A stretch of DNA of 32,613 nucleotides from Acidimicrobiia bacterium (GTDB lineage Bacteria > Actinomycetota > Acidimicrobiia > UBA2766). Under the pieces are notes generated by a model that made no database searches, was not told the origin of the DNA, and saw nothing but the letters and a program-made list of their open reading frames with translations. The DNA lies in NCBI GenBank assembly GCA_020850945.1, contig JADZDR010000054.1, forward strand, positions 1 through 32,613. The letters run 5' to 3'. Below, piece after piece: positions 5,383 to 32,604 of this stretch. The position numbers and the translations under genes were made by a program. How positions within the stretch are numbered: position 1 is the stretch's first letter; each line of letters begins with the position of its first letter.

Positions 5383-5430
5383 CCTCTGGGTACCTGAGCG
5401 GCGATATATCGCCGCTCAGGTACCCAGAGG
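5383..5430. repeat. 48-bp perfect palindrome (copy 1, complete)
   Basis: Bases 5383-5406 are exactly reverse-complementary to 5407-5430, with no spacer. The half begins CCTCTGGGTACC and the axis lies in GATATATC. The first half plus two flanking bases (5381-5406) recurs identically at 32588-32613, the last bases of the window. It lies between the acyl-CoA dehydrogenase and the TMEM175-like gene. It has no U-tract, so a plain intrinsic terminator is not obvious, though the transcript would form a very long hairpin. Confidence 0.9.
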
Positions 5431-7010: not shown

Positions 7011-9788
7011 GTGAACGCCACGGATGTCGGAGTGATCCTCGGAGCGCTCGCCGTCGCAGCCTTCCTCGGCTGGTACTTCTTCGGTCCGAAACGCAGCGCC
7101 GGCGCGGCCTTCAGCGACGGTAGGCAGGAAGCCACGATTCGCGTGCGGGGCGGGTACTCGCCCGCGTCGATCCGCCTCCGATCCGGCCTGCCCGTGCGCC
7201 TCGTGTTCGACCGCGAGGAGGACGGGGACTGCACTTCCGTAGTCGTCTTCCCCGATCTGCGCCTCAAGCGCGATCTGCCCGCGTTTCGCGAGACAGCCGT
7301 CGAGTTCGTGGCACCCGCACCCGGTACCTACGAGTTCCACTGCGGCATGAACATGGTCCACGGCGAACTCATCGTGGAAGCGGCGCAGGCGGACAGCGGT
7401 GACATCGCCGACGCAGCGGCGGAGGAGTTCGGTGACGGATCGACGAGCGAGATCCTGGCCGACGAGTTCCGCCTCGCCGGTGAGGGCGCGCACTGCGCGG
7501 CATGCGTCGCGACCATCACGGACGCCGTCGAGGCCGTACCGGGCGTCGAGTCCTGCCACGTGGACCTCGTGAACCAGAAGGTCCGCGTGAAGCACGCGGA
7601 ACATGTCGCTGCTGACGAGATCGGTGACGCCCTTGCCGGCGCCGGCTACCCGGCCGAACGACGTGAGCATCCGGGCTCGGCCGAGGCGATGGTCGAGGAC
7701 GAATCCTCGCGGGCACGGGAGATGAACCGACTGCGCTTCCGCACCGTCGTCGCCGCCGTGCTCACCCTGCCGGTGCTGCTCGGTTCGATGCTCATGGATG
7801 TGTTCCATGCGATGTGGATGCCTGCGATCCTCATGGATCCCTGGTTCCAGCTCGCCCTCACCACCCCTGTCATGTTCTGGGCAGGTTGGCAGATCCACAG
7901 GAGTGGATGGTCGGCACTCCGGCATCGCAGCGCCGACATGAACTCGCTCATCACGGTGGGCACGATCGCGGCCTACGGGTACAGCGTGCTCGTGACCGTC
8001 GCCCCCACCCTGTTGCCCGAGGAGCTGCGGGGCGTGTACTTCGAGGCAGTCGGTGTGATCATCACGCTCATCCTCCTCGGCCGCTGGCTCGAGGCGCGGG
8101 CCAAGGCCGGGACGGGTGAGGCGATCCGGGCGCTCATCGGCCTGCAGGCCCAGACAGCCCGAGTCGTGCGCGGCGGCGAGGAGATCGAGATTCCGATCGA
8201 GGACGTCACGGTCGGAGACGAAGTCGTGGTGCGCCCCGGGGAAAAGGTTCCCGTGGACGGTGTGATCTCGGAGGGGCACAGCGCGGTCGACGAGTCGATG
8301 GTCACAGGGGAGTCGATACCGGTGGAGAAGGCGGCCGGGGACGTTGTGATCGGTGCCACGGTCAACCAGGCGGGCGCGTTCCGCTTCCGGGCCGAGAAGG
8401 TCGGCAGGGACACGATGCTCTCCCAGATAATCCGGCTCGTCGAGGAGGCTCAGGCCTCGAAGGCCCCGATCCAGAAGCTCGCCGACATCGTCGCGTCACG
8501 CTTCGTCCCCGCTGTCATGTTCATCGCGATCGCCACGTTCGTGGTGTGGTACGTCGCCGGCCCCGACCCAGCCCTCACGAACGCGCTCGTGAGCACCGTT
8601 GCGGTGCTCATCATCGCCTGCCCGTGCGCCCTCGGTCTCGCCACCCCCCTCTCGATCATGGTCGGAACGGGCAGGGGCGCACACGCGGGAATCCTCATCC
8701 GCTCGGCCGAGGCACTCGAGACTGCCGAGAAGGTCGACACCGTGGTGCTCGACAAGACCGGGACCGTCACCCGCGGCGAGCCGGCGCTGACAGACGTCAT
8801 ACCGGTGACCCCGCCCCCTGGCATCGACAGGGACGAGCTCCTCCGCCTCACGGCGGCAGCCGAGCACCTCTCCGAGCATCCCCTCGGCACGGCGATCGTC
8901 TCCGCAGCCCGATCGGCCGGCCTCGACCTGCCCGAGACAGGTGAGTTCGAGTCCGTCACGGGCAAAGGCATAGTCGCCACGATCGAGGGCCGTGCGATCG
9001 CGGTCGGGTCGGAACGCCTCCTGGACTCGCTCGGTGTCGACGACGCGTCGCTGCGCGAGGTGTCGGAGGAGCTGGCGGGGCACGGCAAGACGCCGATACT
9101 AGTCGCCGTGGACGGTGTCGCAGCCGGCGTGATCGCCGTCGCGGATACCGTCAAAGCCGAGTCGGCCGGGGCGGTGAAGGCACTGCACTCCCTCGGTCTC
9201 GAGACCGTCATGATGACAGGGGACAACCGGCGTACAGCGGCCGCCATCGCGCGTGAAGTCGGGATCAAGCGCGTCGTGGCCGAGGTCCTGCCGTCGCACA
9301 AGGCGGGGGAGGTGGAGCGGCTCCAGCACGCGGGTCGCCGCGTCGGCATGGTCGGTGACGGCATCAACGACGCACCCGCCCTCGCCCAGGCCGACGTGGG
9401 CATGGCGATCGGTACGGGTACGGACGTGGCGATAGAGGCTTCCGACGTCACCCTCGTCTCGGGGGCGCTGGGCGGCATCGCGAAGGCGATCCACCTGAGC
9501 CGGGCGACGATGCGCAACATCCGCCAGAACCTCATGTGGGCATTCCTCTACAACCTGATCGGCATCCCGGTCGCCGCCGGGGTGGTCTATCCGTTCTTCG
9601 GGATCCGCCTCAGTCCGATGATCGCCGGGGCGGCGATGGCGTTCAGTTCAGTCTCGGTCGTGATGAACGCGAACCGGCTGCGCCGCTGGGAGCCACCGCT
9701 GATCGAGGCCGATGTTCCGGTGGAGGATGCCGCGCCTGACGTCGAGGTGCCGGTGGGAGCAGGCGGCTCTGCGCATGCCCTGACGTGA
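7011..9788 (+). CDS. copA: Cu(I)-exporting P1B-type ATPase with N-terminal cupredoxin and HMA domains
   Basis: 925 residues in this order: one N-terminal membrane segment (about 7-24); a cupredoxin-like domain (about 40-124) ending [12 protein letters not shown] with Cys111, Met113, Met115 and His117; an HMA domain (about 150-215) with CAAC (Cys162, Cys165); then the ATPase core. Core motifs are TGES (432-435), CPC (537-539), DKTGT (Asp581), SEHP (His623) and GDGIND (782-787). Tyr847-Asn848 and Met876 with Ser879-Ser880 in the last helices are the Cu(I)-site residues of the P1B-1 class. It exports Cu(I) across the cytoplasmic membrane. GTG 7011 follows AAGGGGG. The cupredoxin fusion is unusual compared with the standard CopA of about 750 residues; with a membrane anchor before it, the cupredoxin may face the outside. 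Confidence 0.93.
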
Positions 9789-29840: not shown

Positions 29841-30797
29841 ATGGGCACGGCCGACCTCGCCCGAGTCGTCGAGGAGTTCGAGGCCGGCCTCGACCCCACC
29901 CACCCCGAGCGCCACTCGCTCCCGTCACGCGTCCTCGGATACGGCGAGATGAGCACGGTCCTCGCCGTCGACGTTCCCCCGCTCGACACATGGGCCTGCA
30001 AGCGGATGGCCGTGTTCGAGTCGGAGGAGGAATGCGGCACGTACGAGCGTCTCCTCGGCAGGTACACGGACGTGCTCGGATCGCGGGGCCTTGTGACTCC
30101 GGACCAGCGCGTGGTCAGGACGACGAGCCCGCGCACGGGCCGGCCCGTCCTCTACCTCCTGCAGCGACGCCTCGACCCCGGCCTGTTCGGGAACAGCGTT
30201 GTCCGTACGCTCACGCCCGAACCAGCCGCCTGTCTCGTCACGCGCGTCCTGCGTGAATCCGCGAAGGTCTGGACCGACCACGCCGAGGACGTCGTCGTAG
30301 GCCTCGACGCGCAGATCTCGAACTGGGTCGTCTCCACCGCGTCGGAGGACACCGACTGGTCCGGTGTCGACCTGCTGTACATCGACACCGGCACTCCCCT
30401 CATGCGAGAAGGGGGGGACGAGCTGCTCGACCCCGAGCTCTTCTTGAGGCTCTGCCCGGCATCCCTCCGATGGGTCGTGCGCCGCCTCTTCCTCCAGGAC
30501 GTGCTCGACCGCTACTACGACTTCCGGGCAGTCGCCGTCGATCTCGTCGCGAACCTCGTCAAGGAGGGGAGGGACGACCTCGTCCCCGCCGCCGCGCACG
30601 CGGCTGCCGAGGTCGTCCGTGACGTCACCGGATCGAGCACAGACCGGATCGCCACGAAGGAGGTGCACGCCTATTACCGTGAGGACAAGATGATCTGGCG
30701 GCTGTTCCTCGGATTGCGCCGCCTCGAGCGCTTCGTAACTGCGACGTGCCTGCGCAGACCCTACGACGTCGTCCTCCCAGGTCGCATCAGGCGCTGA
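29841..30797 (+). CDS. Kinase-fold (phosphotransferase-like) protein of unknown function
   Basis: 318 residues. The arrangement resembles a kinase or aminoglycoside-phosphotransferase fold: a Gly-containing GYGEMS loop (about 33-38), Lys54 in WACKRM, Asp156-x4-Asn161 in GLDAQISN and Asp182 in LLYIDTGTP. The spacing agrees with the ATP-binding and catalytic sites of small-molecule kinases, and I recall similar actinobacterial proteins annotated DUF6206, which I could not check. The C-terminal third is helical and has Arg-rich ends. No membrane segment. ATG 29841 begins three bases after the aminotransferase stop, implying a shared operon and possibly a shared substrate. Distinct from the membrane kinase at 19509. 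Confidence 0.65.
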   Translation: MGTADLARVVEEFEAGLDPTHPERHSLPSRVLGYGEMSTVLAVDVPPLDTWACKRMAVFESEEECGTYERLLGRYTDVLGSRGLVTPDQRVVRTTSPRTGRPVLYLLQRRLDPGLFGNSVVRTLTPEPAACLVTRVLRESAKVWTDHAEDVVVGLDAQISNWVVSTASEDTDWSGVDLLYIDTGTPLMREGGDELLDPELFLRLCPASLRWVVRRLFLQDVLDRYYDFRAVAVDLVANLVKEGRDDLVPAAAHAAAEVVRDVTGSSTDRIATKEVHAYYREDKMIWRLFLGLRRLERFVTATCLRRPYDVVLPGRIRR

Positions 30798-30876: not shown

Positions 30877-32604
30877 ATGGGTCGTCCACGTAGGTTCCTG
30901 CATGCCCTCACGGTGGGTGCGTCGCTCGCCGTTCTCGCGTGGTGGCTGGGCACGGTCCCGGCTGCAGGGAGCTTCGCCACCGTTGTCATGCTCGTGGCCC
31001 TGGCCCTCTCGATCACGACGTTCGCGGTCGTCGGCGCGCTCGCGTGGCGTCCGTGCCGTCCCTACGAGCGGCCGGCAGGTGACTTCAAGCCCCTCACGAT
31101 CCTCGTCGTCGCAACGGCGGACGACAGTGACGAGAAGCTCCTCACGTCCGTCGCCCTGGCGCAGGGCGCGGGTGAGGTGATCATCGGCGATCTCGCGCCC
31201 AACCCGAGACGGGAGCTCGCAGCAGATCTCGACGTCCTTCTCCTGCACGGAGATGATCCGGCCGACGTGGGGAACGCGGCACTCGCCCAGGCCACGGGTG
31301 AGGCGTTCTGCATCCTCACGGCGCAGGCGTGCGCTGTCGCCCCGGAGCTCCGCGTGGCCACGGCGGCAATGCACGAATCGGCGGCTTGGCTCGTGGCCGA
31401 GACGCGGCCCTACAACGAAGATCGCTTCGCGCCCGCTCCGCACGTGTCGACGGACGATCACATCGACGAGCTCGCCGAGGCGTGGGGTCTTCGTGCCTGG
31501 GCATGCAACGCGACCATCGTGCGCACCCGGGCTGCGCGTGACGTGGGAGGCTTCGAGGCGCACCGCCCGTGGGGCAGCCTCCTGCGGCGCCTGGCCGGAG
31601 CGGGCTGGCGAGGGTGCCGCGTGGCCAACGTGGTCTGCGTCGTCTCTGCCCCATCCGAGCCCACCCGCTTCTGGCGGAACCAGGTCTGGAAGGAGCGCGC
31701 CCGGGTCGCGGAGGCGGCAGATGCGATGCGCCGCCGCGGCGGTGGGTTGGCGGAGAGGTTCGCGGGACTGGCCGTGACCCTGCGGGCTCTGCACGGCATC
31801 CCCAGTGTCCTCTGGGTCCTCGGCTTCGGGACGGTCGCCGTGACAGGGGATGCCTTCACCACGGCTCCTCTCTTGCCCTTCACGCTGGCCCTGTGCGCGA
31901 CGGCCCTTCTGCGCACCCTCAGCCTCAGCCCTGCGGTCGACCCTGTCCGTGTCAACGAGGAGATCGTACGGACCGTGTACAGGGTGCCCGGCTCGCTCTC
32001 CGCTCTGCCCGGCCTGTCAGGCCGGGCTGAGCCGATCGCTTCGTCCAGCGGCACGACCACGGTGCTCCCCGCGCGACCGCTCCTTCTCGTCTGCCTCCTC
32101 CTCGGCCTCGCGATCGGTCAGGGTATCCTCCGCTTGCTCGGAACTGTGCCGGGCGGAGATGCCGGCGTGCACACATGGGGTGCGGTCGCGAGTGGCGCCG
32201 TGCTCCTGATGCTCATCGAGGCCATCGCGTATGCAGGTTCGCTGCGAAGGTCAGGACGGGATTCGTACCGGTTCCCCCTCGACGTCGGTGTACGGCTGAA
32301 TGGGATGGCGGCACGTACCGACGACATCTCCGCCGGGGGCCTACGCTGCCGCACCTCCTCGCGTCTTGCCCCAGATCAGGTCGTAACGCTCACGGTGGAC
32401 TTCGTAGGTCAGGCCCTGCACGTGACAGGAGTCGTGCGCCATGTCGCGCCCGGCGAGGGCGGAACCGAGACCGCAGGCATCCGACTTGCCGAGCCCGTGG
32501 GCGTACGCTGCCGGTGGGTCCGGGCTCTCTTCGCCGAAGCGGGAATTCTCGAGAGGGCACCCGTGCGCGCACGCGTGAGCGTTGCGGGCCCTCTGGGTAC
32601 CTGA
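30877..32604 (+). CDS. Degenerate GT2 (cellulose-synthase-like) membrane protein with C-terminal PilZ domain
   Basis: 575 residues. Two membrane segments (about 8-26, 32-54) are followed by a GT2-like domain and more membrane segments (about 308-345, 400-420, 432-455), then a PilZ domain (about 457-550). PilZ has the c-di-GMP motif: RDSYR (Arg461, Arg465) and DISAGG (Asp483, Ser485, Gly488). The GT2 motifs are damaged: the LDAD-type metal site reads LTAQ (147-150), the 'ED' acid site after GGFE reads HRPWG, and QxxRW reads NQVWKERA. The order BcsA-like helices, GT domain, helices, PilZ is typical of bacterial cellulose synthase, so it is probably a non-catalytic c-di-GMP receptor. The stop codon TGA 32602-32604 lies inside the repeat copy at the window end. 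A true enzyme with unusual motifs cannot be excluded. Confidence 0.8.
   Translation: MGRPRRFLHALTVGASLAVLAWWLGTVPAAGSFATVVMLVALALSITTFAVVGALAWRPCRPYERPAGDFKPLTILVVATADDSDEKLLTSVALAQGAGEVIIGDLAPNPRRELAADLDVLLLHGDDPADVGNAALAQATGEAFCILTAQACAVAPELRVATAAMHESAAWLVAETRPYNEDRFAPAPHVSTDDHIDELAEAWGLRAWACNATIVRTRAARDVGGFEAHRPWGSLLRRLAGAGWRGCRVANVVCVVSAPSEPTRFWRNQVWKERARVAEAADAMRRRGGGLAERFAGLAVTLRALHGIPSVLWVLGFGTVAVTGDAFTTAPLLPFTLALCATALLRTLSLSPAVDPVRVNEEIVRTVYRVPGSLSALPGLSGRAEPIASSSGTTTVLPARPLLLVCLLLGLAIGQGILRLLGTVPGGDAGVHTWGAVASGAVLLMLIEAIAYAGSLRRSGRDSYRFPLDVGVRLNGMAARTDDISAGGLRCRTSSRLAPDQVVTLTVDFVGQALHVTGVVRHVAPGEGGTETAGIRLAEPVGVRCRWVRALFAEAGILERAPVRARVSVAGPLGT

Follow-up and report, generated by a model that had tools for sequence, protein, structure and literature searches.

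At the end of a contig from an Acidimicrobiia bacterium lies a gene whose product resembles a BcsA-type polymer synthase from which the catalytic residues are missing. What does such a protein do when its chemistry has been lost and its c-di-GMP-binding PilZ domain has been kept? The initial annotation of the window (by which we mean the whole stretch of 32,613 nucleotides analysed here) had suggested that the protein descends from a polymer synthase and serves as a scaffold or sensor. The derivation is borne out below by sequence and predicted fold. The role as a c-di-GMP sensor or scaffold is one that we infer from the pattern of lost and retained motifs.

Fold and motifs of the pseudo-synthase

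The gene encodes a membrane protein (Table 1), and its start codon aligns with that of a 57%-identical homologue in G001, a genome of the same genus. The domain order is that of BcsA, as the initial annotation had claimed: two TM helices precede a GT-A domain, which is followed by further TM helices and PilZ. A Pfam scan of the 575-aa protein found PilZ as the only domain (PF07238, residues 457–537, 32.9 bits against a gathering score of 22.5) and returned no glycosyltransferase family at E≤1. A PDB search with the window protein as a single sequence found nothing, and a profile search matched BcsA weakly and in the TM/PilZ part only (E 1.3e-4). The relation of the GT-A domain to BcsA thus rests on hhalign, Foldseek and VIA-align. 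Using hhalign, seven pseudo members were aligned with six active GT2-PilZ proteins at a probability of 99.5% (E 2.4e-23) over 525 columns. The AlphaFold2 model of the window protein reached a pLDDT of 82.7 and a pTM of 0.83, its input being a 13-row alignment that included active relatives, by which the model is partly guided. In Foldseek, BcsA accounted for each of the eight best PDB matches of this model (best E 3.0e-26, query TM 0.69), the match to BcsA with c-di-GMP and UDP (4p00) had a TM of 0.73, and VIA-align with E. coli BcsA gave a Z of 26.1 and an rmsd of 5.1 over 541 aligned residues.

Table 1. Features of the pseudo-synthase gene and its surroundings (window coordinates). Counts refer to eight pseudo members and six active GT2-PilZ relatives.
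Feature	Position	Strand	Evidence
DUF6206-family gene, upstream neighbour	29841..30797	+	PF19709 above cut-off; also adjoins the G001 homologue (same genus)
Pseudo-glycosyltransferase/PilZ membrane protein	30877..32604	+	ORF, 575 aa, no internal stop
TM helices 1–2 (residues 2–25, 33–55)	30880..31041	+	AlphaFold model helices; aligned to BcsA from residue 1
GT-A-fold pseudo-catalytic domain (residues 69–286)	31081..31734	+	AlphaFold model, BcsA matches, hhalign to active GT2-PilZ
DxD-H site, here T148-A-Q-A151 (lost)	31318..31329	+	DADH in 6/6 active, 0/8 pseudo
TED (catalytic base) site, here H229-R-P-W-G233 (lost)	31561..31575	+	[TA]ED in 6/6 active, 0/8 pseudo
QxxRW site, here N268-Q-V-W-K272 (lost)	31678..31692	+	QRxRW in 6/6 active, 0/8 pseudo
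Interface helix and TM helices 3–6 (residues 287–456)	31735..32244	+	Model helices
FxVTxK motif of the gating loop, absent around residue 383	within 31735..32244	+	FxVT[PA]K in 6/6 active, 0/8 pseudo (joint alignment)
PilZ domain (residues 457–556)	32245..32544	+	PF07238 above gathering score
RxxxR (R461–R465), intact	32257..32271	+	8/8 pseudo, 6/6 active
DxSxxG (D483–G488), intact	32323..32340	+	7/8 pseudo; G110 has E for D
One half of a long, perfect palindrome (repeat) in which the stop codon of the gene lies and with which the contig ends	32589..32613	+	About 40 copies in the window's genome

To score the motifs, we used a joint alignment of eight pseudo members (the window protein and seven homologues) with six active GT2-PilZ relatives (L022–L027) from the same class of bacteria. 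The roles of the motifs (DD, DxD, ED, QxxRW, FxVTxK, HxKAG, FFCGS, QTPH, RxxxR and DxSxxG) follow PMC10237404. While the two groups are homologous over the 525 profile columns, the active proteins keep HAKAGN, DADH, [TA]ED, QRxRW and FxVT[PA]K, and the pseudo members do not. At the HxKAG site, HAKAGN occurs in all six active proteins and in none of the eight pseudo members, the window protein reading ..DPADVGN. TED falls on P231-W-G233 in the alignment with the six active relatives. The window protein shares with BcsA its fold and domain order over the full length, and a PilZ domain with R461xxxR465 and D483xSxxG488, whereas all catalytic and gating motifs are gone. The strict form of DxSxxG is even kept in only three of the six active relatives, as against seven of the eight pseudo members.

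These results agree with the initial annotation, which had reported the loss of DxD, the catalytic acid region and QxxRW at the sites where we find them, together with intact PilZ motifs. Since DxD, TED and QxxRW are kept in none of the seven homologues, the loss is a family trait. Judged from the aligned sequences, the pattern of loss and retention is not due to chance, being the same across eight members.

There is little sign of alternative catalytic residues at the same sites: no acid is invariant among the eight pseudo members at the DxD, TED or QxxRW positions of the joint alignment. The only GT-A acids kept in all eight are position 86, D182 and a D/E at 279. The first two are also acidic in at least five of the six active relatives, and the third, in the interface helix, is new and conserved in all eight pseudo members. 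N180 and W208 are kept in every pseudo member and every active relative, and D182 in every pseudo member and five of the six active relatives. P231, G233, L236, R237 and W266 are among the residues that are invariant in, and particular to, the pseudo family.

Distribution, descent and locus

With the window protein as the only query sequence, five of 148 related genomes gave a match, the window's own genome (G000) included. A profile of those five, run against 395 genomes of the class, reached 13 genomes, seven with pseudo members and six with GT2-PilZ proteins whose motifs are intact. The families to which two distant members belong were searched as well, with matches in 2 of 14 and in 3 of 33 genomes, and this added one new member, G399. 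The phylum sample yielded the window's own genome only (1 of 396), and a scan of genome contigs gave five loci, all from genomes already in the set; the named relatives among them were MAGs that carry the labels Acidimicrobiia, Actinobacteria, Actinomycetes and Microthrixaceae. Across the genomes searched, in the class and in the phylum sample, the distribution of the pseudo family is sparse. Three of its eight members belong to the window's family, f1 (G000, G001 and G003), and five to two other families; the fourth f1 genome, G002, has no pseudo member.

In a maximum-likelihood tree the eight pseudo members form one clade apart from the six active proteins, with support of 100/100. A single loss of the catalytic motifs would be the simplest reading of this tree, which was rooted by midpoint, rather than a proof of it. 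Between the window gene and that of G001, dN is 0.37 and dS 1.49, which is near saturation, for a dN/dS of about 0.25; between G189 and G399, dN is 0.37, dS 0.86 and dN/dS 0.43. Additionally, in four pairs of pseudo members the GT-A domain is always more conserved than PilZ (58.7 and 53.5%, 42.7 and 29.3%, 60.0 and 49.0%, 51.2 and 41.8%, respectively). Because the GT-A domain is still conserved, the gene is not decaying, and an inactive domain kept to this degree probably retains some function.

The window covers the whole of its contig (C54), which terminates 9 bases past the stop codon, so the absence of partners downstream means nothing. On the upstream side, Pfam identified a class-III aminotransferase and the DUF6206 protein; by eye, the latter has a motif spacing (a lysine, GLDxQxSNW and IDTG) that is presumably kinase-like. 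Pfam scans of 25 window ORFs revealed no cellulose operon partner; in contrast to BcsA, no BcsB-like gene is among those ORFs. The initial claim that the window holds no cellulose partner therefore stands for these 25 ORFs, and the contig end restricts it to the one side that is visible. In G003, a pilin gene lies approximately 45 bp upstream of the homologue on the same strand, and in both G001 and G003 less than 400 bp separate the homologue from a contig end. G000 contains three PilZ matches, the window protein among them, and 14 GGDEF matches; no second copy of the window protein was found in this genome. Scans of the window for Rfam families and tRNAs gave no match. Elsewhere in the window, positions 7011–9788 encode a P-type metal ATPase that carries a cupredoxin-like domain at its N-terminus alongside HMA; a metal-sensing repressor gene adjoins it.

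The repeat at the contig end is a loop-less, perfect palindrome with a 42-bp core, which extends to 48 bp in the second window copy (5383–5430). The copies are nearly identical and their flanks unrelated: of 28 that were read, 24 match the core without mismatch and four with one. With a crude ORF caller, 15 of the 28 lie between two genes (6 convergent, 9 co-directional and 0 divergent), six have a gene on one side only, and seven were called inside an open frame. The palindrome is predicted to fold as a very stable hairpin. It is absent from 128 kb of the same-genus genome G001 and from viral contigs. Together these features suggest a repeated terminator-like element.

Relatives fused to a signal peptidase

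In the five members outside f1 (L034, L037, L038, L039 and L055), the open reading frame runs past PilZ into one hydrophobic segment and then a signal peptidase domain. TIGR02228 scores above its curated cut-off in all five, and the solved structures closest to the peptidase domain are SEC11C (E 9.7e-15) and SEC11A (E 7.5e-13). The SxSM, THR and GDAN columns are invariant in the five fused relatives, and we take them to hold the Ser, His and Asp of a SEC11/SipW-type peptidase. These proteins resemble signal peptidase I of that type (TIGR02228) in the domain, the Ser-His-Asp residues and a hydrophobic segment on either side. They differ in carrying the domain as an extension of a pseudo-synthase with PilZ; no such domain occurs in the window protein. 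For the fused protein of G189 the AlphaFold model was less confident (pLDDT 69.1, pTM 0.62) and was not used as evidence.

Each fused gene is adjoined by a gene for a Thr-rich surface protein on the same strand (five of five, spacing −4 to 40 bp). These neighbours end in LPFTG, LAFTG or LPRTG followed by a TM tail, and two of the five hold adhesin-type domains, one ice-binding-like/choice-of-anchor A and the other SpaA-like. A Cys-containing N-domain is shared by three of the five adhesins, those with the N-terminus on the same contig. In G020 and G399 the N-terminal part of the adhesin lies at the end of another contig, presumably since the Thr repeats break the assembly. A search for the N-domain in 51 genomes found it in seven: all five fused-member genomes, G412, where the contig ends inside the Thr repeat of the adhesin, and, weakly, G169. 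No pseudo-glycosyltransferase was found in G412 or G169, though the adhesin domain is present. The co-occurrence of adhesin and fused protein is strong but not perfect. In G110 (L038:11558-19253), PilB (MshEN), PilC, pilin and PilT form a type IV pilus set with a GGDEF-EAL gene after it, and this group is oriented divergently to the adhesin/pseudo-synthase pair.

All three f1 members stop after PilZ and have no peptidase domain. TIGR02228 gave no match in G000 at E≤0.1 and is absent from the window ORF, and the adhesin N-domain occurs in none of the four f1 genomes. As the window form has neither the peptidase nor the adhesin N-domain, the output of the relatives is not transferable to it. A peptidase gene hidden just past the contig end is unlikely, given that the next gene in G001 is a convergent HTH-family gene and that G000 has no TIGR02228 match.

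A dead synthase as a probable membrane switch

We judge it fairly probable that a dead BcsA-like synthase has been reused here as a c-di-GMP-responsive membrane switch. In favour of this stand the predicted BcsA fold, the five lost active-site motifs together with the retained c-di-GMP-binding ones, the single clade, the selection still seen on the GT-A domain, the 14 GGDEF matches and lack of a second copy in G000, and, in the relatives, the peptidase fusion and the adjoining adhesin genes. Points against it are the new conserved acid at 279, the E for D in the DxSxxG of one member, the missing peptidase and adhesin N-domain in the window form and the weakness of the link to pili. In BcsA, c-di-GMP on the PilZ domain frees the gating loop of the glycosyltransferase active site. 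On this reading, the catalytic chemistry of a BcsA-like, c-di-GMP-activated polysaccharide synthase would have disappeared, in the simplest case a single time, in the ancestor of a small Acidimicrobiia family. In its descendants c-di-GMP would bind PilZ and shift the GT-A/TM body as in BcsA, and this movement would be passed to a partner rather than opening a sugar-binding pocket. For the five fused relatives, the partner in the same polypeptide would be an extracytoplasmic SEC11/SipW-type signal peptidase, with the wall-anchored adhesin of the neighbouring gene as its likely substrate and the cleavage of that substrate as the step that may be regulated. In these relatives the pseudo-synthase probably gates adhesin maturation. 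For the window lineage, where the peptidase is absent, the partner would act in trans; the DUF6206 protein and a pilus component are candidates.

The protein might instead be a structural or assembly subunit of a pilus or other surface structure in the membrane, with PilZ kept only as a fold that senses nothing. Type IV pilus genes adjoin two of the eight loci, the pilin gene in G003 and the PilB-PilC-pilin-PilT set in G110, and this makes the pilus a weak lead as a general partner. Against such a subunit, the stretches inspected around the remaining six loci, some of them short, showed no recognisable pilus gene, and the family holds RxxxR in all eight members and DxSxxG better than the active relatives do. 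We regard it as unlikely. Continued catalysis is less likely again. While a plain cellulose synthase is rejected on the loss of the five active-site motifs in all eight members, a glycosyltransferase that remains active through another site, one that needs no metal, could be argued from the good conservation of the GT-A domain and from N180, D182, W208 and the new acid at 279, each present in all eight. However, all five BcsA active-site motifs are lost in every member, the TED and DxD positions carry no invariant acid, and N180, D182 and W208 occur in active relatives too and hence do not mark a new site; we consider this explanation very improbable.

The position of the gene raises the further thought of a decaying pseudogene or an assembly artefact, with the contig ending so close to the stop codon and the homologues of G001 and G003 less than 400 bp from contig ends themselves. 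Full-length open frames in eight genomes, the dN/dS values of the two pairs, the confident predicted fold and a contig break inside a repeat seen about 40 times in the genome all speak against it. Pseudogene decay is rejected on the predicted fold, dN/dS and GT-A conservation, and we give next to no credence to this explanation as a whole.

If the membrane switch is the correct reading, the fused arrangement is similar in outline to the Lap system (LapD/LapG/LapA), in which c-di-GMP controls the proteolysis of a large surface adhesin. It differs in the protein families involved: here a signal peptidase would act on a wall-anchored substrate, under putative control by c-di-GMP. A broader proposal would be that these proteins form a new class of c-di-GMP effector, in which a dead synthase is the c-di-GMP-responsive regulator of a membrane signal peptidase and c-di-GMP thereby determines the maturation of a dedicated, wall-anchored adhesin, the window gene being the stand-alone half that acts in trans on a different surface system; taken as a whole this is tentative, and we hold it to be rather doubtful. 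In the portion of the literature covered by our search, neither a PilZ-bearing pseudo-synthase of BcsA type nor a PilZ-signal peptidase fusion is described. The window gene represents a known family in pseudoenzyme form; the fused system, which is the more novel, lies outside the window. To our knowledge, few such c-di-GMP effectors are known in Actinomycetota. Should the switch reading be true, a polymer synthase can become a signalling device, and the fused relatives would place protein export and adhesion in Actinomycetota under the direct control of c-di-GMP.
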